Assembly: GCA_014885115.2 (NCBI GenBank)
Contig: WKLE02001172.1
Location: 1 to 20,755, forward strand
Length of the DNA: 20,755 nucleotides
DNA from: Asterionellopsis glacialis
Lineage: Eukaryota > Bacillariophyta > Plagiogrammaphyceae > Rhaphoneidales > Asterionellopsidaceae
Direction of reading: 5' to 3'
The translations under genes were made by a program, and so were the position numbers. The notes beneath the pieces are model-generated. The model was not told the origin of the DNA and made no database searches. It worked only from the letters and a program-made list of their open reading frames with translations. This document shows positions 2,113 through 20,372 of this stretch, one piece after another (within the stretch, counting starts at the first letter, position 1; each line of letters begins with the position of its first letter).

Positions 2113-5100
2113 ATGACAACGGCAGCAACAAGCAAGTTGACAACAACAGCACCAACATCGACTGATAGTGCTGCCACCACCACCAACACGACTGTTGGAA
2201 CAAGTTTAGAAGCACGCCAAGCAGCTGCTCGTGCTTACGCATTATCATCATCAACAACGCAGCCGATTGCTCACCAAGACACTGGTAGCACAAGCTCAAA
2301 TCTAACTGGAACACAACCAACCAACAAGACACAAAACTTCCAAACTCCACCTGTTCGCCCAACACCCCCATCAAAGCATTCAACTCAGCAACAACAGCAA
2401 CAACAAAATAAACGAAAAAGGTCATCTAAGAAAACAACACCACCATCGGCAAAACGCAAGATTGCTCCACCACCGCCGTCGTTATCACAACCAAATTCAC
2501 ATCCACCTCTTCATCTTCACCTCACTTCTCCCTCTCCTACAGCCGCCACTGCTTCATCTTCTGTGATGTTGGACGACGAACAAAGCGAAGACGGTGATTC
2601 CTTAGAGTATCAAAAATTTGTTAACTCCTTGTTTACCAGCAATGATGACTTACTGAGTTTACCACCCATCGGTGAAGAGGGTGAAGAGGATGAAGATGAA
2701 TACGTAGCTGACGATGACAAGGAAAACGAAGATGGCGATGATGATGATGATGATAGTGAGGGAGATGTTGACGAGGCAGATACTGCTGCTACCGCGGAAA
2801 AGAACGACACCTCGGGCGTGAATAACAAACAGCATAATCCTCCTCCCATGTCACCAATTTCATTTGATTACGATGATTTAGATGCTGAATTGACTTCCCT
2901 CTTAGAGGAAGACATGGAAGCGGCTGTAACTACATTATGTCTCAATTCCGTGCCGAAAAATTCCTTACCACCACCCCCACACAAAGTAGTATCACCCACT
3001 ACCACCAAGAACGCCAAAAATAACAGGACACAATCATCATCACAACAAAAACAAGGACAACAGCCACAAACGCTGCAGGGGGCAGCAGTTGATGGTTGTA
3101 ATAGCAATAGTGGCGTAGGAGGAGCTGGTGGCAACACTAATATGAGTGCACCTTCACCATTGAGTATGTCTTCACCCACATCCAAAAAGGTTGCATCACC
3201 ACCGCAAGTGACTGGTCAACAGATGAATCGACTATGTAACTTGTTGCAATCACATTATCAAATACTGCTTCAACAGGCAGTAATGGCAGTACGACAAGGG
3301 TTTATACAAAAATCGTCTCAAAATGGTGGTGCCGCCAATAGTACTGCTTCTCGAGATTACGGTGCAGAAACGGCGGAAGATTTGGCAGAAATTATTGATG
3401 GAGCTGTGGGAATGCTTCAAGATTTAGATCAGGTACGAGAATGTGTGCTTTGATGTGTATTGATCCTCATTTTTCTTGTTATTGTATATCGAAGGTGGCG
3501 AATATCTCAACATTTCAACTTTTTTGGTATACCTGCACCTGCACACACAGAACCGAAAAGATGCTATTCGTAATTCCATTCAACAACTTGAAACAAAACA
3601 ATCTAGCAGTGGTGGCAAACGGTCTTTACTTTCCGCTTTGACAGCCTCATCAGAAACAACCACTGATGGGGGTGCCAAACCTCCTCACCAAAATCAACGT
3701 CTTACTCGGTCTGCGTTTACTCAAATGCAATCCTCAACTCAAACTAAAGCCAAGACTACCTTTGACATCAAGGGGTTGCAAAATCTGAAGGAAACATTTT
3801 CGATTATTGACCAAAGCATGTCCTCTCCGGAAGATATGACGATGGAAAATGGTGTCGGTGAAGCTTGTCGCAAGTTACTGCAGGAAGCCGGATCAAATAT
3901 ACAAGAAGCTTTGATTCCTAACAAAAAGGATATATCTGCTAATATTTCACACCCCAAGGAGTTCTTTGGACCAATGTTTGCACCTCCTACCAATCCTGAC
4001 CAAGAACTGGCGCTACGGAAAAATAGAAATCAATTTACGGCCGCGGAAGACAACTTGGTATTGAGAGGAGTGAATCTTTATGGTGAAAAACAATGGCTTT
4101 TGATTGCTGATAGATATTTACCAGACAGGTCAGTCAATGTCATTTCGCAACGGTATTCTAAACTTTGTCTAATGTTGTACAAGGCACATGGTATTTTCAT
4201 TGACGAAGATGGAAATTTAGAAACTCCTCGAAAAAGCAGCAAAAGTGGTACGGGACTAGATCGGTCAGATGACGAAGCTCTGTCCAAACTGAAAAAGGTG
4301 GAACCACCTGCCATTTTGAATGTGCATCGATGGAGTTTAGAAGAAGACCTTACGCTTCTGAAAGCAGTACCTTATTTGGGCAACATGTGGGCTGAGTTGT
4401 CAAGTAGATTCATTCCTCATCGGGATCGAGGTCACTTACGTAAACGTTATCAAGTGTTGGAACGTCGTGTGAAGGCTACTATACAACGAGCAAAGAAGAG
4501 TGGGGTCAACACAAGCAACGCATACAGCATGCCAGCTCAACCGAAGGGGTGCAAAACTGGCAACGCCGCTGCTCCTACTGCACGTTCATTACTACCGCCT
4601 CCCCGACCACCACCTGTACCACCATCTATGCCAAGAAGTCGAAAGACAAATAGCAAAAAGATTGTCAAAGATGTACCCGAGACTTTATCGTATCCCGGAC
4701 AGCATTTGCCACCCCCACAATACATACCACGTTTGGCATTACAACCTGGTAAGCGTATGTCGAACGGGGCTGCAGGTTCTGGTGCGTCATTGCCACCGGG
4801 GGCGAAGGGTGTGGGATTGGGTAGAAAAACTCCTGGGTATTCATTGCCAATGAGACCAAAGACAAATGGCACACAGGAGACGACAGGAAATGGTAATGCG
4901 GGGCCTGTTCATCCATATCTTTCTGGCGTCATTAAGGGTAGTAAGGGAAGCAAGATTGTTAGACCAGCAGACGTACAAAATAATCTTCGAAAAAATGGTG
5001 CGAATACAAAGAGTGTTGGGGACATTACAAAGAAGAAACCCGCTTTCAGTAAGAAGAGTAAAAAGAGTGTTGGTGGAAAAAAGAATGGTGCTTCGAAAGC

Positions 5101-6223
5101 ACGTTCAAAAGCAAATTCAAAAGCAAACAACATGGATTTACTTATTCCAGCAGCGTCAAGTCCCGAACTGGATAAGGCCGCAACAGTAGAAGGATCTGTC
5201 AAACTTGAAAACAACTCTACACGTACTGGATTCGAAAAACTCCTGAACGAAGGAAGCAATGATTGGTCGCAAGGCCCGCGTCTGAAGAAAATGATGGAGG
5301 AGACGGATACAGAGAGTTTGGTAGCTAGTACGATTGTAAATCATTTGGCTACAGGAAGTGTGGCTCATGCAGAGAGAAATTCGGCTGAGAGACTACCTCA
5401 TCTTGACTTTGACAATACCACTTCTAGCGGACTATCGTTTTTGAATGATCCGAGTGATAAGTTCTCAAGTCCTCTCAAGGCGCAAAGGCCATCAAATAGT
5501 GCTAGTATCTTTTCAAGAGTCACAGAGCAAACTGATAAGCGTGGTGCTCCACACGAGGGAACGAAAAAATCAAAACCAGTGAATGGCGGCGGAAGTCTCT
5601 TCGATTCTTCTCCACCAACTCCAGTTCAGGTCCCGTCCACACCAAGTAGAACAATGACTCCATCAAAGGCATCCTCTCATGCGTTTCATTTGGGTTCAAC
5701 CACTCCAATTGGTTTGTCTGGAGGGTTTTCACCATCCAAGAATTGTTTTTCATCTCCTGGATTCCGAGGAGCCTTTTCGCCAGGTGGCATGATGATGTCT
5801 TACTCAAAGGATGGAGCCAGCGCTGACAACTTTGAAGCTATGTTCGAGATCTCTGACAGAAGTCGTCAAGCATTTGAAGCTGGAGTAGCGAATAACGGCA
5901 GTGCAAAAACTGGACAACCTACCAGCTCTGCCGGTCCTACGCCCACACCCTATCTGAACCAGCCATTGACACCTTCTCAGGGTTATTACCGGGATGCCCA
6001 CAGTTTGAATCCGATCGATCTGGATGTGGTGTCGGCACTGAATACGTTGAGCAATTCGCCGGCTCGGCAATTGTCTATGAAGCGTCCAGCACCCTCCAGT
6101 GGTGCAGCACCAACTCTACCCAAGGACGAAAGTAAGAAAAGGGGAGCTGGCGAGAGCAAGAGCTTTTTTGCAAGAGCCATTGGTGGGGTTCGTGACAAAG
6201 AAACAAAAAAGAGACGAGTGTAA
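2113..6223 (+). CDS. GON4L/YARP-like protein with two SANT/Myb-type modules
   Basis: The model joins 2113-3432 and 3551-6223, giving 1330 residues. The ATG at 2113 sits in a good context (caccATGaca); the frame is open slightly further upstream but offers only a TTG. Residues 1-100 are Thr/Ser/Gln-rich. A basic NLS-like cluster (NKRKRSSKK) starts near 99, and an Asp/Glu-rich block spans about 187-225. A helix near 366-397 (QQMNRLCNLLQSHYQILLQQ) resembles the QxxxLxxxLxxHxQLLxQ helix of GON4-like proteins. A first SANT-like module begins near 602 (FTAAEDNLVLRG, then WLLIADRYLP). A second begins near 699 (HRWSLEED) and ends with IPHRDRGHLRKR, close to the VPHRD motif of plant GON4-like proteins. 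A Lys-rich stretch (about 930-965), a long Ser/Thr-Pro-rich tail and a basic C-terminus (ETKKRRV) follow. Known family members are nuclear transcription or chromatin cofactors, so a nuclear regulatory role is inferred. Confidence 0.72.
3433..3550 (+). other. Intron of the GON4L-like gene (118 bp)
   Basis: The donor is CAG|GTACGA and the acceptor is CACACACAG|AAC after a C/T/A-rich run. The flanking exons are in different frames. Removing exactly this interval joins them in phase 0 (codons CAG then AAC, giving DLDQ-NRKD). The upstream frame stops just inside the intron. The other candidate AG, at 3493-3494, would put the downstream exon out of frame. Confidence 0.85.
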
Positions 6224-9971: not shown

Positions 9972-12102
9972 TTAGAGTAACACTGTGCTCTCGTAGGTAT
10001 ATTCTCGTTTGGCAGAAGTAGGTAAATCTGGAGATCGTGATGGAGCTTCAGGTGCTCTGCCTGTTGGGACAAATGTTAAATCTCGATTTCGCTCCAACTC
10101 ACATGCCGCGCATGCACTACCTATGGCTGATGCACAAGTATGAAGTTCCTTTCTGTCTGATGTTGTAAAAAAACCGGGTTCTTCTTCACCGAGATAGACA
10201 GGTGTGTCCCAATCTGCCGCAATGTTAAACTCCTCTGTTGCAGTTGTTGTGTGGCCCTCACTTGCCTCGTCACTCGCAATATCTTTAGCATAATCCTTAG
10301 TTATATCGTCATCGTCATCGAAAGGTACATGGTCGAAGGCATCTTGTTTTCTTTTATCATTGGCAAACAAGGCCAAGACAATCAAAATTGTAGCGACTGA
10401 ACAACACAACGCAATCCACCCTGGAACACCCAAGCCTGATCTACCTTTTTCTCCAGTGTTTGTATCTCCAAAAGTTCCAGAATTTCTATCAGTGTCATCA
10501 ACAGGCGTGACTGTAATATCAGCTATATTTAGTAGCCCAGGAAGGCTAATGTCGAACTTTTCAAGTTCATCAAGTAGTCTCTGTCTAAGGTCAGCTGGTG
10601 GGTCAACACCATCATTCAAGTATATACTGACAACTTGTTCAGTTTCATGACAAGAAGCTCCAACGGGGACCTCACCGCCACCAGGGATCGAAGGAGTACA
10701 AGAACCTTAGATTAGATAGGAAAGAGTAGCGTACAGTGCACTCGTTAGAGCCATTCCACAGCCTCATGAAATAAAAAAACGACGTAGCAATATATTCATT
10801 AAAGCAACCCCATTACTTACCAACAACTTTTCCATCTTCAAAGACAACATTTACGATTCCATCTTTAGTGTTAACATCATCTGACATTAGCTTTCGCGAA
10901 TTAGTTGGGCATCCGGCAACCGCAGGTGCGACAATTTGTTGTAATGCTCTTGTGAGGGACTCCATAATGGATACAATGTCATAACCACCACGAATTGTAA
11001 GGTCCATGCCAACATTAAACTTGACAGAATTACCTGTCGTGGGGGCAGTGCCGAGACTGATGGCATCGCAATCGTTGATAACGAAAACGTCGGGAACAAC
11101 TGCTAATGTAGGCATGGCCGTTGGAGCACAAGTAACTTTGTGTTTGCCTTTACCTTTGTCTTTAGCTTTGCCACCTTTGCCACCTTTGCCGCCTTTGCCT
11201 TTTTCTTTTTTGCCTTCTGCATAACACCATTTCTCCTTTTTACCCTTTCCTTTTCCCTCTTTTTTGTCAAGCTTATCTTTGCCCTTTCCCCCCTTTCCCT
11301 TCTCCTTGTTTTTGGCTTTCCCCTTTCCCGTACTTGCATTGCTTGGTTGTGCATCCGGAAGCGCATCTGGAAGCGCATCAGCAGTGTGCTCATCTCCAAA
11401 ATGACCCGTACTGATACCTGTCGAGCCAGTAGAGGAATCGCCAATGGAACTATCAGGTACATCCACCGCGACTGGAGAAGCTGTAGGTTCCGGAGTGGTA
11501 ATTGGATCAAATGGAAATGTGGAATCAGCAGTGGCTCCTACGTCGTCTTCAGGTGGCTCATCATATTCTATATTTTCATCCGTTTTCATTACTTTTGGTA
11601 CTGGCTTTTTCCATTGAACACGAGGCTCACGAAGTGTCTTCGCAGGATCCTTGGAAGCCGTCTTCTCAGGATCCTTGGAAGTCGTCTTCGCAGGATCCTT
11701 GGAAGTCGTCTTCGCAGGATCCTTGGAAGCCGTCTTCGCAGGATCCTTGGAAGCCGTCTTCTCAGGATCCTTGGAAGTCGTCTTCGCAGGATCCTTGGAA
11801 GTCGTATTCACAGGATCCTTGGAAGTCGTTTTCACAGGATCCTTAGAAACTTCGTTTTTTTCTGTAACTGGATCTGACTTCTGTTTAAATCTGAAATGTG
11901 TCGATGTTGGCATTCGTCTTCCTCGAACACCATTATCAGGTCTTTGTATCAATGCTAATCGGGCAGTTCTCTTATCTGCATTCACTGATGAAAGTAGCAA
12001 AATAGATATTGTACCTAATTGGAATAAGTATTTCATGACAGTCATGCGTCGACCATTTCGTTGATGTGGTTGTTGATGGTGACAGTTATTATTTTTCCTC
12101 AT
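9972..12102 (-). CDS. Secreted-type single-pass membrane protein with SKDPxKTx repeats, Lys/Gly-rich stretch and SEA-like domain
   Basis: The model joins 12102-10821 and 10705-9972 on the minus strand (671 residues, stop TAA). The ATG at 12102 is the first in frame; a second ATG at 12045 would give a tighter signal peptide. A hydrophobic core at residues 25-39 ends in SSVNA, a likely cleavage site near 42. Residues 86-156 hold nine 8-residue SKDPxKTx units. Residues 259-322 are Lys/Gly-rich (KGKGGKGKDK type). From about 324 to 480 a folded region has a beta-alpha-beta-beta-alpha pattern with several Cys (NVGMDLTIRGG, IVNVVFEDGKVVG, ETEQVVSIYLNDG), suggestive of a SEA-like domain. A membrane helix lies at about 521-543 (WIALCCSVATILIVLALF), followed by a 128-residue acidic cytosolic tail. 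The Thr/Pro phrases (PTASPVAV, APTAMPT) are typical of diatom extracellular proteins. A cell-surface or wall role is inference. An RKL motif sits near 403-405. Confidence 0.75.
10706..10820 (-). other. Intron of the SKDP-repeat membrane protein gene (115 bp)
   Basis: On the minus strand the donor is GTTG|GTAAGTAA and the acceptor is ATCTAAG|GTTCT. Splicing is phase 1: the G left at 10821 joins GT to make a Gly codon. The joined reading (KVVG-SCTPSIPGGG) runs without a stop into the downstream exon and completes the Cys-containing domain. Without splicing the upstream frame stops right after the donor. Confidence 0.85.
11642..11850. repeat. 24-bp coding tandem repeat, nine units
   Basis: The hexamer GGATCC recurs exactly every 24 bp at 11645, 11669, 11693, 11717, 11741, 11765, 11789, 11813 and 11837. 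Units are nearly identical; the differences are mostly single substitutions that exchange Ala, Glu or Val after KDP, or Thr for Ala at the end of the unit. Because the period is a multiple of three, the repeat keeps several other frames open too, which explains the long plus-strand frames here. The high identity points to recent expansion or homogenisation. Confidence 0.95.
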
Positions 12103-12294
12103 GGTGGTGCTCAAGATAAAAGTTTCTTTCCATACAATTTTCTTGAGTGGAGTTGCCTGAAACCTAGAGGATTACGGTATGATGTGCAGTAAAAATGTGT
12201 GAGCATCGATACTTCATCCATGACCAATAAGCCGAGGTTCGAAGGTTGACAACTAACTATCGGAGATGGTGCGTTGAGAAAAGATAGTCGGGTC

Positions 12295-13146: not shown

Positions 13147-14646
13147 ATGAACCCTAAATTCACCGGACTTGCCCTCGCGGGCCTTTTGGCACAAGCCGCC
13201 GCCACCAAGCCTGCTTTCGCCCAGCGCAAGGTCAGCACAAAAAGCCTTCGTAAGATGCAACGTAAGTTGGAAGAAGAGGAACTCACTGGTGATTACTCTG
13301 TCAGCTTCAACACCTGTATGCACATCAAGGTCAACGACGAAAACTTGTACGACGATAACTACGTTGCCTTGACCCAAAACGGATACGTTGAGGCTGTCAA
13401 GTCCATGGTTGTTTTCGATGTCTGCAAGACTGAATACTGTGGTTATGAAGGTAACAGCAACATGCACTCCATTGACCTTGCCACTTGGGTTGGATCCCTC
13501 GTAGAGGCCCCTGTCAACAAGAAGGAGGCTTACTGTGAGGCATGCAGGGAATCTGATGAATACTGCAATGCTGAAGAGGAAGAGGAGGAAGAAGAGGCAG
13601 AGGAAGATGAAAACAATGAAGAGGAGGACGAAGAAGATAAGGATGAAGAAGAGAACGAAGAAGACGAGGAAGATGACAAGGATGAAGACGAGGAAGAAGG
13701 CGAGAACGACGAAGAAGGCGAGGAAGATGACAAGGATGACGAAGAAGACCGTAAGCGTAAGCTTGCTGTTGCCAAGCGTCACCTCGCCGGAAACTACGTC
13801 GACTGCGACACCTGTGCTGCCCAAGGATGCTTCGACGAAGACGAGGAAGACCAAGGTGATGACGCTGCCATCCAAGATGAAGACGTCGTCGAATGGATCC
13901 AAGAGCTTGCTGAGTGTGTCCAACTTGATGAACAATACAACGACATGAACCTCTACGCCGGACTCACCTGTAACGGAGAGGGAACTGGTGTCACCATTGG
14001 TATCTTTGTTGATGAAGACTGTACTCTTCTCACCAACCAACAAAACGTCAAGAATGTCATGGCCAACGACGGCGACTTCTACGCTCTTTACCAAAACTCT
14101 GCCAACCTCATGACCTACTCCTTCATCAATGATGTCTCATGCGAACAAGTTGAATACCAAGCCTTGGGCGATGACGAAGAAGAGGAACAAGATGAAGACG
14201 AAGAGGAGCAGAATGAAGCCAACGAAGTCTGCCAAAACCTTGTTGGCGGTGAAATGTACTCCAAGCTCGGCTACTGTGAAGTTGATGAGGATGAAGAAGA
14301 AGAGGAAGATGACGAGAACGAGAACAACTGGTACAGTTATGATCTTACTGCCGACCAAGCCGAAGATGCTGGTGCCATCTGTCAATACATTACGGACTTC
14401 GAAGGTAAGTACGAAGCTTCTTCCAATGTTGACTACGAACACTCCGAAGACAACGAGGGCGGAACATTGTACGACTACTCTGCAGGAAAATCCGGTAGCG
14501 ACGGTTCAGGTGGCATGGTTATTGGAATCATTGTCCTCGTCCTTGCCATCATTGGTGTCACTGTTGCCGCAGTCTCTGCATGCACAAAGAAGTCTTCTTC
14601 AGACTCCAAGCGTGAGCCTCTTAACAAGAACGGCCAAATGGCATAA
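13147..14646 (+). CDS. Acidic, Cys-containing type I membrane protein, signal peptide, likely abundant
   Basis: A single exon of 499 residues from ATG to TAA. The N-terminus (MNPKFTGLALAGLLAQAAA) is a signal peptide, with possible cleavage near residues 20-26 (AAATKPAFAQ). A Cys-containing module follows (about 48-141: SFNTCMHIKVNDENLYDDNY, then YCEACRESDEYC). A Glu/Asp-dominated block runs from 143 to 201. Next come basic RKRKL (202-206) and RHL (211-213), a second Cys region (DCDTCAAQGC) and a domain with CVQL, LTCNGEG and DEDCTLL. Two shorter acidic stretches precede a membrane helix at about 458-480 (MVIGIIVLVLAIIGVTVAAV) and a short basic, Ser-rich tail. Codons favour C-ending synonyms (GAC, AAC, GTC, CTC, ACC) far more than the neighbours, as in highly expressed diatom genes. 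It resembles a common but unnamed stramenopile family of secreted YCxxC proteins. Function is unknown; wall, silica-vesicle or Ca2+-binding roles are guesses. Confidence 0.85.
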   Translation: MNPKFTGLALAGLLAQAAATKPAFAQRKVSTKSLRKMQRKLEEEELTGDYSVSFNTCMHIKVNDENLYDDNYVALTQNGYVEAVKSMVVFDVCKTEYCGYEGNSNMHSIDLATWVGSLVEAPVNKKEAYCEACRESDEYCNAEEEEEEEEAEEDENNEEEDEEDKDEEENEEDEEDDKDEDEEEGENDEEGEEDDKDDEEDRKRKLAVAKRHLAGNYVDCDTCAAQGCFDEDEEDQGDDAAIQDEDVVEWIQELAECVQLDEQYNDMNLYAGLTCNGEGTGVTIGIFVDEDCTLLTNQQNVKNVMANDGDFYALYQNSANLMTYSFINDVSCEQVEYQALGDDEEEEQDEDEEEQNEANEVCQNLVGGEMYSKLGYCEVDEDEEEEEDDENENNWYSYDLTADQAEDAGAICQYITDFEGKYEASSNVDYEHSEDNEGGTLYDYSAGKSGSDGSGGMVIGIIVLVLAIIGVTVAAVSACTKKSSSDSKREPLNKNGQMA

Positions 14647-15133: not shown

Positions 15134-18100
15134 TCATTTAGAGAGGGGTTTTGCATCAGTACGATGGATACCTTTGCGGTTTTCTGAGGTCCTCACCACC
15201 TGTTTTTCTGAATTCCTCATTGGAGGCATCGGAGATAGCCCGAAAGAACCACGCTTCTTTGAAGCCATTGTAATTTGTCTATTTGTATTTCTGGCAGCTT
15301 TAGGTGTATCATGACTATGATTTGGGGGATGATGATGATGAGATGACGATGATTTTGCAGTGTGCGGCTCCTCCTGTTGATGTTCACGTGGCGAAGCCTT
15401 CATGATTGGAGATGCTTGGCCATGGGATGGTATTGTGACTTCGATGAGGCCAAGGGACTCAGCGCGTTCATAGTGCTTCACAACAGCAGCATTTGGTGCC
15501 CGCTCATTTTCAACCGTCGGTGGTACTGGTACCGCTACACCTGCTATCGCTATGTCAGGATCTCCTCCATCATACGAGGGGGAATCATACGAAGGGAATC
15601 TCTTCATATCTTGATTTTTTGTTCCAATATTTTGGGCATGATATTCAGTAGCATCCTCCCTAATCAAAATCCATCGAAAGGAATCAGTGAAAAGCACCGG
15701 AACCGGCTCAATATCATCAATCATTGTGACGACATCTTCGTTTGTCACAGAATGAACATCATGGCCATCGTTGCTATCAGAAGATAAACTTGTTTTGTCT
15801 CGGCGATATTGAACAACTGCGTCTTGAACAAACTTGGTGAGTAATGATAGTGCAAAAGCTCCCAACAAAAGCAGATACCAGCCTATCTCAATCGTTGGTT
15901 GTACCTTGAAGCACTGAGCATCGTCCTCATCCAAAAAACCGTAAAATTCAAGCGTAGCGAAAGTAGTATTCAGGCTCTCGCAGTACTGATTGACCATGAA
16001 CTCTGAAGCAGATCCCAATTGCCAGGAGCTGATAAATATGGAAACAACAAAAACATCGAGGTATTGCCACGCTTGAAGGATCTCGACAAAAAAAAGACGC
16101 CTTGTTCGTGTTTTGTCATCCATCGGAGCAAACCACTGTAAAAGTAATCCTGCGATAATGAAATGAATTTAAACGACATTGCATCGGTTAGTTAGGTCCA
16201 GAACACTGCTAAAAAAAGTCGGTTGATACTGGTGCAGCACGCATTTAAGCAAACATACCAAGAGATTGAATTACGGGAACAATCAGTACCGATACAATCA
16301 TCAATGCCGATAGTGAAAGGTGACCAATATAGGCTTTCGCAGTTCCCAAAAAACTTGCGTTATCCATGAGAAGCTGAACTATATTGAACAAGCTATAAGT
16401 ATCCTGGGCTTGCTCAAAGTCACGACCGGCCTCAATTGCAATACCTATCAAGCCCAAAAACTCAACTGAAAGAGAGACCAAAGATACACCAAGCACGATA
16501 ACAATCACAAGAACACCAACAGAAACGGCTAAGCCCATATTGACTCCACGCCGTACTCTGAGTTTGTCGTACTCGGCACGGTGAGGTCTTGAAAAAGCAT
16601 GATCGTGAAGAATATGTCGGTCTGTCTTGTTCGGGATTTCTATCGAATTGCCATCAAGTTCATCCGTATTTATCCTACTACATCGCTTCTGCTCGTAGAC
16701 ATGGCAAGATGCTCGCTGAGTGCGACGGTGATAGTAAATAATGAAATGGGAACTGATTTGTGATAAAAACTGTGCGATCATGTTTGCGTAAATTCCCCAA
16801 CGAGGTTCCACCATTACTTCAATAGAATAGAAATCTTCAGGGAGAAAAAGCCTGTCCGGACTTACAAGTGATATCCGAAAAGCAACCATTGCCATGATCA
16901 ACACAAATATATCAACAATACTCCATTTAGCAAGTGCCTCAAGCCAAGCTAAAATGGAGCCTCGCCGAGAAGTTGACACCTTGCTAGGAGGAAGAAACCA
17001 CAAGGCTAGAGTAATGATTTGCTTGGTATAAGGCCATATCCCAGAGAAGAGCAGGATGAGGATTGCAAGTTCCTCACCTCCAGCATTCCATAGATCGATG
17101 ATAGTCTTAGCGACGTTAAATTCGAAGACATTTGAAATGTCAATGCTCTCCTCAGCAATACCAAGTACAAGATTCACTGAGCCGCCAAGACTAAGATGAC
17201 CGCTAAGGAATAAAGCGATATTGATGAGTAGAACAATAGGCACTGCAACCCGAGCAATGGCGGGAACCTCTGGGCTTTGAAACAAAGCTTTACTTAGCTT
17301 GTCTACTTCTTCCTGCTTTTCTTTGCCTTTCTTCTGTTGCAGTGCTATTTGCGAAATGCGTGAACTAGGAAGTGATCGGAGCCACACCTGATTCCTCTGC
17401 CGAACATATCTCCGTACAACGTAGCCAATCGCAACAAAAGCAAAAATGATACATAGAATTGTAATCGCAACAGCGATGAGGAAAGATACCGTTTCATCTC
17501 TACCGCCTGAATCTAGTAGTGGGTCATACTTCGCACTCGTTGCGTTTATGACGTACTCGGGATGGTGTGGGCATCTTTTTGGAGCTTCACTTATAAAACG
17601 GTCTGCTTGAGTTTGAAAGAATTCGCCTTCAATTAATTGAGTGACGTATTCAAGAATATCATTCGCTGCTCCTTTAGCTTCCTCCACCGCCTCAGCGGAG
17701 TTCAGCCGGTCATCGAGCTCTGCTAGACCCTCACTCGTGCAGTTATTGCAAGTCACATTAAGGTCCAAATCTGTAACTGACAGTATCAAGTCTCTGATGC
17801 CAACGCTTGATTGAGAATTCTCTAACCGGATACCTCGCGAATCTAGCAAAGGTGGCGGTAAAGTGGCCGCCCAACAATTAGGATTGAGAATATTTTCAAG
17901 AGGAAATGTTACGAAAGCCTCTTCATCGATCAACAAAAGAATCTCGATTGCCGTCCTTATATCGTTCAAGGCGAGGGTGACATTGACTTCATTCCAAATT
18001 TCCAAGTCATCTGATATATCCAGGAAGTGAATGCAGTGAAGTTTTTAGAAATGTTCTGAAGGAAACAGAAATAGAGATAGATAATCGACGTTAACTACTT

Positions 18101-20372
18101 ACCGTCTCCTGACAAAGCCAGAAGCAACGTAGCCCCCAAAATGACGGATCTTTTGCCCACTCCAAGCGAAACTGTGTTATTAATTATGTCCGCGGTGTTT
18201 GACAATGGGCTTAGCAAGTCAATTGGACCTCCTACGCTATGGAGATTTTTGATAAATGCATTAGATATTTGGAACTGAATATCGGTGAAAAAACCACCGA
18301 TGGTGACATTCGTGTTCAGATCCACCAAATTTCCATTATATGTCATCATACCCGCAAATCCTGACTGTCTTTCAGTCAAAGGCTCAATTACTCGTTCGTT
18401 GAATGTATCCACCAAGCCAGTGACCTCATTAACCGTAAGAACGTTTGAAATCAGAACATCCCTAAGTATTGGCATTACATTTCCATACGGTGAGGTACCA
18501 GTTCCACCACGGGCAACAGCGCTCTCTTGCTTCAAAAGAAGATCCCGAAGATCCAGATTTCTCGGTTGTGGTGGTACGATAGGAGCAGGACAAGGCTGGT
18601 CTTCTAAGATACTTTGTAACTTCTCGTTAAGAGAATCTTTAAATTCAGTACGAAAGAAATTTGGCAGAGCTTCGACAATAATGTCGTCATAAAACTCGTA
18701 AATGGTATCAACAAGGGTAGAAATCAAATTGTTCAGTCCTTGAGAAGCAAAACCGCCTACTGTAGGCGTCTCGATATCGCCTAAGTCTATAGATAAATGC
18801 GCTATCTCAAAATCGAACGTTGTGGACATGAGACAGGGCAACAGGTTATCAGTATGTAACAGAGGTCCAAGATAAAAGTCGCCAAATTGGCTTTCATCAA
18901 TTGCTACCAGGATCGCAAGATCGATATTGAAGTTTTTCATTTTCAAACCAACAGTAGCCGTCTCTGTAAGCGTAGAGCCTGTATCTGATAATAGATCGAG
19001 TATAATTTCCAATTCAATATCAAGAAACTCCCACGTTAGTAATGTTTGCAAAGTGTACTGTCCGATAATAGCCGGGGGTTTGAACTCTTTGAAAGAGTCT
19101 AGGCCTCGAACTTTTATCTTGTCCAGTTTAATACTTGCTTGAATCAAACTCTTGTCTCCTCCTTCCCAGAGACTTAGGCCACCCGAAGTAAATTCTGAAA
19201 TGACCAATGAAAAAGCTCCGTCTTCATCCAGAATGGAGTCCCGGAGGAAGGTGTTAATGTAAAGATCGTTATCATTGGGATCGTTCACAGTCTGGTTGAG
19301 TAGCTCGTTTATCGTGTTTAAAATTGACTCCAAACCTTTGGCAATATCAGAATCGGCAGGTTTTTGAAAATCTACGATTGACACGCCCTCTGGAACGACC
19401 AAAGCATTTTCTGCAGCAAGGGGGTCATCTATACCGACGGTTGTTTCTAAGTATGGATCTAGCATATCATTCACTCCTTCGAGGATATTTGAAACAGATG
19501 TGCTTGTGAAGTTTTCAATTGAATCACATACCTTTTTTTCAACTAGGCCTTCAATAGCATTGCCGATGAGATTTTGGAAGACATTAATGTTAATAATATT
19601 GGAAAGAGGGGTGTCTCCATCTAATTGTAAGTTTTCAATATTAATTTCAGACACACAGTTTTCAGATGTAGCAGAATCTGGAGGTCCATCTTCTGGGTGC
19701 AGTAATACTATGTCCACCGACAAACTATTATCTTCAGTTATTCCACTTCCCGACCCTTCACCTGGTGATCCAAAGCCCAGGGAGTAATCGTATTCAATAA
19801 AGCAAGTCATATCTAGATCGTAAACAACGAGACTGAGAGTGGTAGAAGTAGAACCAGGTTTAGGTGTTACTACAATATTGCCAATATAGATATCTGTACA
19901 TTGTAGGTTCTAGAGATACACCGAAAAAAGAGGAAAGAAAGATTAGACGGTGAGAAAAAAAAAGGAATAGAAATGGGCGTCCTCTGTTGGAAAAATAATC
20001 GCGAAGCGCTTTAGTTCTCACCTTGAGATTGAGTACAAGTGTCCTAAATCCAAGATTTTGTTCAACAGTCTGATTGGGAAGGTCGAAAACCACACCTCGA
20101 AGAAATTGATTTACGCTTTCAAAGTCTCCAAGGCTCCTAGTGGAAAATAAATCTTGAAGTATTCGATTGTTGTAAGAAGCAATAAAATCATTATCTCTCT
20201 GATCTTTCTCAAAGTATGTTGGTCTATTATTGTTTCCAAGTTGGACCTCCAACTGGCGATCATGTTGTTTGATACTGATAAATTCATCGCTTGCTGAGGT
20301 GATGCTCGAAACAGCAAACGTTCGATCCCAGGACGACAAAAAAATCAACAAAAACAGCAGTACAAGCATCAT
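15134..20372 (-). CDS. BPI/LBP-like (TULIP) lumenal region fused to tandem PqiA-like membrane modules
   Basis: Four exons on the minus strand (20372-20022, 19909-18103, 18010-16259, 16149-15134) join into 1641 residues ending in TGA. The first ATG in frame is 20372. Residues 1-19 form a signal peptide (LVLLFLLIFLSS). A long lumenal region (to about 894) carries many N-glycosylation sequons. In it, LVLNLKNLQC leads to CVSEINIENLQL (Cys202) and, after a helix, LVEKKVC (Cys245). This follows the disulfide-plus-helix layout of BPI/LBP N-terminal domains. Similar strand-helix blocks recur further on (GLNNLISTLVDTIYEFYDD; AFIKNLHSVGGPIDLLSPL). After TM1 (895-918) come two four-helix modules, TM2-5 (974-1146) and TM6-9 (1211-1409). 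Both share a WF[LA]P...RR...W...D[IV]FV signature of PqiA/LetA proteins. The usual CxxC zinc-ribbon pairs are absent. A 230-residue Ser/His-rich cytosolic tail ends the chain. Lipid transfer at a secretory-route membrane is inferred from both families. Confidence 0.72.
16150..16258 (-). other. Intron 3 of the TULIP-PqiA gene (109 bp)
   Basis: The donor is TCTTG|GTATGT and the acceptor is TTATCGCAG|GAT, minus strand. It is phase 1: G plus GA makes Gly. The joined sequence (IQSLG-LLLQWFAPMDD) restores a membrane helix and the WFAP motif that matches the first module's WFLP motif. That internal match is strong evidence for this junction. Confidence 0.88.
18011..18102 (-). other. Intron 2 of the TULIP-PqiA gene (92 bp)
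   Basis: The donor is GAGACG|GTAAGTAG and the acceptor is GATATATCAG|ATGAC, minus strand. It is phase 1: G plus AT makes an Asp codon, giving LSGD-DDLEIWNEV. The upstream frame hits TAG right after the donor, so splicing is required to continue. Confidence 0.83.
19910..20021 (-). other. Intron 1 of the TULIP-PqiA gene (112 bp)
   Basis: On the minus strand the donor is CTCAAG|GTGAGA and the acceptor is GTATCTCTAG|AAC. It is phase 0: the joined reading LNLK-NLQCTDIY continues in frame to the long second exon. Splicing places a conserved-looking strand across the junction, which supports the model. Confidence 0.85.

Follow-up and report, generated by a model that had tools for sequence, protein, structure and literature searches.

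Does one diatom gene join a lumenal region of the BPI type to the membrane unit of bacterial PqiA and LetA, and if so, what might the resulting chain do? The question is raised by a locus on the minus strand of a contig from Asterionellopsis glacialis (the window, that is, the whole stretch of 20,755 nucleotides analysed), for which an earlier note, made from the letters alone, had claimed a single protein combining both parts. As judged from sequences and predicted models, the locus holds a single gene for a single chain, in which three TULIP-type domains (T1, T2 and T3) precede one PqiA/LetA unit; at that level the domain order, the kinship with BPI and LetA, and the variation of the array by whole T2-T3 pairs among relatives are all established. 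Lipid binding and transfer by this protein, their direction, the lipid and the energy source are what we infer beyond this.

A single gene of four exons

The minus strand from 20372 to 15134 yields a single protein of 1641 residues (Table 1). Candidate GT-AG introns allow eight splice combinations, only one of which keeps the frame open from the ATG at 20372 to the stop at 15134; the nearer acceptor of intron 2 leads to a stop after 722 residues. In the alignment of eight homologues the junctions are spanned throughout, with the exception of one homologue that begins downstream of intron 1, and gaps at the three junctions do not exceed a few residues. The three introns and the one chain proposed in the earlier note are thus borne out by the sole open combination and by the alignment across the junctions. 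The gene model is drawn from genomic sequence and homologue alignment alone, which leaves some room for a wrong splice model or for two or more adjacent genes read as one; this is nevertheless scarcely credible, as the homologue P0013 aligns without a break over residues 82-1495 at 40%, the splice junctions are aligned in homologues, transcript-derived homologues show the whole domain order, and the same genome holds a relative with five TULIP-type domains (C648, below).

The chain opens with a likely signal peptide, judged by hydropathy scan alone, and would be located in the secretory pathway or the plasma membrane. The diatom plastid motif has a Phe after signal cleavage; here the residue past the likely cleavage is Val, the motif is not evident, and a plastid role was set aside.

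Three TULIP-type domains in the lumenal region

The lumenal region consists, by profile comparison and predicted fold, of three TULIP-type domains. A family profile built from 32 rows (30 homologues, picked by length from the 69, and two exon translations from the window) finds human BPI in the PDB at E 1.7e-5; a profile of 43 amoebal and parabasalid sequences finds BPI at 1.5e-11 and LBP at 2.8e-5, with LetA at just 0.34. The model of the homologue P0062 has three strand blocks, each ending in a long helix, and its best PDB fold matches are LBP, BPI and CETP; taken by itself, the first block matches Der p 7 and LBP, and the first two together match both BPI domains. The BPI alignment of the homologue model spans T1 and T2 (model residues 61-532), and the fold-comparison rows barely reach T3. 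Residues 202 and 245, named beforehand as a BPI-like cysteine pair, do align with cysteines of BPI and are conserved in 25 and 27 of 29 aligned rows, respectively. The TULIP/BPI-like character that the earlier note gave to this region is therefore upheld by the family profile and the homologue folds, the single-sequence Pfam match being weak; its 'repeated strand-helix blocks' are present as well, and are corrected here to three TULIP-type domains.

Single sequences give a different picture, from which it could be argued that the region has some other beta/alpha fold and matches BPI by chance. With the window protein, LBP_BPI_CETP (PF01273) scores 14.2 bits (E 0.035), below the curated cut-off of 28.8, so that the region is filed by fold and family profile and not by Pfam label; PDB searches with the window protein or with the homologue P0001 return no credible relative, the best row for the former being Rix7 at E 0.42, which we take as chance. 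Three of 17 scanned homologues pass the Pfam cut-off (P0033, P0076 and P0077, all three with PqiA too), and P0001 falls narrowly short at 27.9 bits. Given that both the diatom and the amoebal family profiles match BPI, that homologue models match it by fold and that the cysteine pair is aligned, a chance resemblance is very improbable.

T3 is assigned as TULIP-type by its homology to T2, which appears in profile comparison at E 5.6e-9 over 238 columns; the controls reach 0.17 or worse against the membrane module and 0.08 at best in 20 column-shuffled comparisons. T1 has no comparable homology to the other two blocks (E 0.008 and 0.027). The window protein's own domain-profile scores are partly by construction, since the T1, T2 and T3 profile alignments include its exon translations. 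T3 (17553-18553) also contains four cysteines, at residues 765, 807, 810 and 866, which include a lumenal CxxC and are cysteine in 31 of 31 aligned rows; they perhaps form disulphides.

One complete PqiA/LetA unit

Behind the array and a connecting helix (TM0), whose following RRYVRQR would be cytosolic by the positive-inside rule, Pfam PqiA (PF04403) matches the window protein in two stretches with 49.9 bits (E 4.3e-13; cut-off 23.8). Fusion to a PqiA-like membrane part, as first claimed, is thereby confirmed, while the count of two PqiA modules needs amending: E. coli PqiA and LetA likewise have two PF04403 stretches each, and the two modules are the halves of one ordinary, complete PqiA/LetA unit. 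The family profile finds E. coli LetA in the PDB, which contains the LetA structure 9n8w (released 2025), at E 0.0028, and LetA is also matched by fold, its residues 64-418 aligning to residues 600-1022 of the amoebal relative P0068. An acidic residue is kept in 70 of 70 first modules and in 97 of 97 second modules collected (D or E in the second).

From the PF04403 stretches and the fold alignment of LetA with P0068, the modules of the family stand in tandem in the bacterial order. LetA's two modules had at first appeared to be matched in reverse, and a comparison with profiles from 25 bacterial first and 25 bacterial second modules leaned the same way: eukaryotic module 1 scored better to the bacterial second module in 29 of 68 cases and to the first in 38, eukaryotic module 2 scored better to the bacterial first in 58 of the 63 with a module-2 match, and the summed scores favoured a swapped order in 52 of 63, counter to what we conclude (for the window protein, 23.6 versus 24.5 and 15.9 versus 18.1 bits). 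The swapped order is rejected on profile-profile comparison, in which both eukaryotic modules are closer to the bacterial second module, and on the P0068 fold alignment, which follows the bacterial order. Module 2 matches bacterial modules in profile comparison at E 1.3e-9 over 73 columns. A set of 80 loci proved to be closely related to E. coli PqiA (Enterobacterales); two of these gave access to genomes and the others were left aside.

Array length changes in whole pairs

The domain order T1-(T2-T3)n-PqiA recurs among the 69 homologues with n = 1 in 24, n = 2 in 29 and n = 3 in six, so that 59 consist exactly of T1 and one to three whole T2-T3 pairs; the search was confined to chains of up to about 2870 residues. 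A query aligned from 11 distant members recovered just one of its own sequences and so says nothing about the breadth of the family. Since T3 is homologous to T2, the array can be said to grow by pairs, and the occurrence of three, five or seven TULIP-type domains in relatives points to a lipid carrier that can be extended. Named relatives are mostly diatoms (Thalassiosira, Skeletonema, Cyclostephanos, Seminavis), with one Entamoeba; transcript-derived homologues carry the complete order, and the amoebal P0068 has two TULIPs in its model. The Cyclostephanos relative P0027 has a META domain (41.5 bits) at residues 89-169, ahead of its TULIP array.

Further relatives in the same genome were taken from single reading frames that had not been assembled into genes. 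C648 (L023) holds T1-T2-T3-T2-T3 and PqiA across three long reading frames, C818 has T1-T2 and PqiA in two adjacent frames, and C363 has a T2-T3 piece. C504 (L007:3118-5625, minus strand) has an 836-residue frame that matches PqiA and in which no TULIP was detected, so the genome may also hold a TULIP-less eukaryotic PqiA. The MCE domain (PF02470) found no match in this genome, in a search hampered by introns, on a possibly incomplete assembly, and with a control positive in four of 14 genomes. PF01273 gave no match in this genome either, but nor did its control, which makes that search uninformative. The genome, which has introns, also gives a silicon-transporter family match of 278.4 bits, and both features point to a diatom.

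Possible function of the fused chain

LetA presumably exchanges lipid with the MCE tunnel LetB. We consider it probable that lipid likewise passes between the membrane and the TULIP array, on the lumenal or outer face, by way of the PqiA/LetA unit of the window protein. The unit, formed by TM0 and the two four-helix modules, would bear the tandem array of three TULIP-type domains on its lumenal or extracellular side, take lipid from the membrane or deliver lipid to it, and hand lipid to the nearest TULIP domain; the TULIPs would relay it, in either direction, between the unit and a partner membrane or lipid outside the cell, in analogy to LetA with LetB. The suggestion that such a fusion replaces the MCE conduit is plausible to this extent, as the limited search detected no MCE domain and the topology fits, and we retain it as conjecture.

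BPI and LBP bind lipopolysaccharide (PMC5507252). The PqiA part might be a mere anchor or signalling partner; the array would then serve at the surface as a receptor or trap that acts on lipids from bacteria or the surroundings, much as LBP and BPI act on lipopolysaccharide. T1, which is closest to BPI/LBP, the likely signal peptide and the relatives in Entamoeba, a phagotroph, would suit this. Diatoms, however, are mostly not phagotrophic, and neither PqiA module has been lost, the acidic residue being present in all modules collected, which is arguably more than an anchor should need; we regard this alternative as unlikely.

The array itself may work in more than one way. Each TULIP could shuttle or store lipid by itself, extended arrays then serving without membrane bridging; a chain with several lipid-transfer domains does not have to use them in series (Wong and Levine 2017, PMC5507252, section 4.7), and we give such independent carriers a substantial chance, somewhat short of even. 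The growth by whole T2-T3 pairs in 59 of 69 homologues speaks against them, in so far as it suggests a structural repeat. A bolder proposal is that in diatoms T1 and one to three pairs form a continuous hydrophobic path, an extendable single-chain conduit fed by a LetA-type loader, whose reach would depend on how many TULIP pairs it has and which would be a eukaryotic, MCE-free counterpart of LetAB and PqiAB; this we hold to be possible, if doubtful. Were it true, a LetA/PqiA loader would work with another lipid-carrying fold, making loader and conduit exchangeable parts. As natural members have three, five or seven TULIP-type domains, the choice between tube and shuttle can be tested inside one family.

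Features of the locus and neighbouring genes

Table 1. Gene model and predicted domains of the fused chain (window positions; residues numbered in the 1641-residue protein).
Feature	Position	Strand	Evidence
Exon 1, residues 1-117	20022..20372	-	splice-combination test
Start codon and likely signal peptide, residues 1-20	20313..20372	-	MMLVLLFLLIFLSSWDRTFA; hydrophobic stretch in hydropathy scan
Intron 1, GTGAGA..CTCTAG, 112 bases	19910..20021	-	7 of 8 homologues align across the junction
Exon 2	18103..19909	-	splice-combination test
TULIP domain T1, residues 82-289, intron 1 inside	19394..20129	-	domain profile, 153 bits (partly by construction); BPI profile match; homologue fold
Cys202	19655-19657	-	within T1
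Cys245	19526-19528	-	within T1
TULIP domain T2, residues 291-572	18545..19390	-	domain profile, 265 bits (partly by construction); homologue-model alignment to BPI
Intron 2, GTAAGT..TATCAG, 92 bases	18011..18102	-	all 8 homologues align across the junction
TULIP-type domain T3, residues 570-872, intron 2 inside	17553..18553	-	domain profile, 293 bits (partly by construction); T2 homology
Exon 3	16259..18010	-	splice-combination test
Connecting membrane helix TM0, residues 889-923	17400..17504	-	hydropathy 3.18
PqiA module 1, residues 932-1209, four membrane helices	16542..17375	-	
Conserved Asp1086	16911-16913	-	PqiA module 1
Intron 3, GTATGT..TCGCAG, 109 bases	16150..16258	-	all 8 homologues align across the junction
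PqiA module 2, residues 1213-1416, intron 3 inside, four membrane helices	15812..16532	-	second PF04403 stretch; helices by transfer
Acidic residue Asp1335	16055-16057	-	PqiA module 2
Exon 4 including stop codon	15134..16149	-	splice-combination test
Cytosolic tail, residues 1417-1641, low complexity	15137..15811	-	many homologue alignments end between residues 1421 and 1500

Elsewhere in the window, 13147-14646 (plus strand) encodes a very acidic, EEEDE-rich protein without Pfam match, probably secreted and with a C-terminal hydrophobic helix, and 10813-12114 (minus strand) a Lys/Gly-rich protein, also without Pfam match, in which about nine 24-base tandem repeats (11631-11848) code for SKDPAKTT-like units. 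A Myb DNA-binding protein (PF00249, 50.0 bits, two stretches) lies at 3476-6220 on the plus strand.

Comparison with known systems

Wong and Levine in 2017 (PMC5507252, section 2.1) described CETP/BPI proteins of protists and amoebae that carry PqiA at the C-terminal end, and reached the same view of their function, so that the fusion and its functional reading are not new in kind. The window protein fits that published type, a CETP/BPI region N-terminal to PqiA in a single chain, and differs in having three TULIP-type domains (five or seven in relatives, two in the amoebal P0068); the word diatom is absent from that paper, and in the sections covered here no array exceeds two TULIPs. The T1-(T2-T3)n-PqiA series with its growth by pairs is apparently new; the literature search found this one paper joining PqiA and TULIP, with subscription literature mostly outside its coverage and priority accordingly unproven.

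Compared with BPI, LBP and CETP, the chain has in T1 and T2 the counterparts of both BPI domains by alignment, and the cysteine pair of T1 is aligned as well; the animal proteins are soluble and have two domains, whereas the window protein adds T3 and the membrane unit. Compared with E. coli LetA (YebS) and PqiA, it is without cytosolic zinc ribbons, its sole CxxC being the CNNC at 807 in the lumenal T3, whereas E. coli PqiA has weak DZR matches and CxxC pairs; its unit is fused through an extra helix to the TULIPs, whereas the bacterial ones pair with a separate MCE protein. LetB and PqiB are such separate proteins, which form hexameric rings of a fold unrelated to TULIP; what the window protein would share with their tunnels, by analogy only, is a modular lipid path of variable length beside a LetA/PqiA unit.
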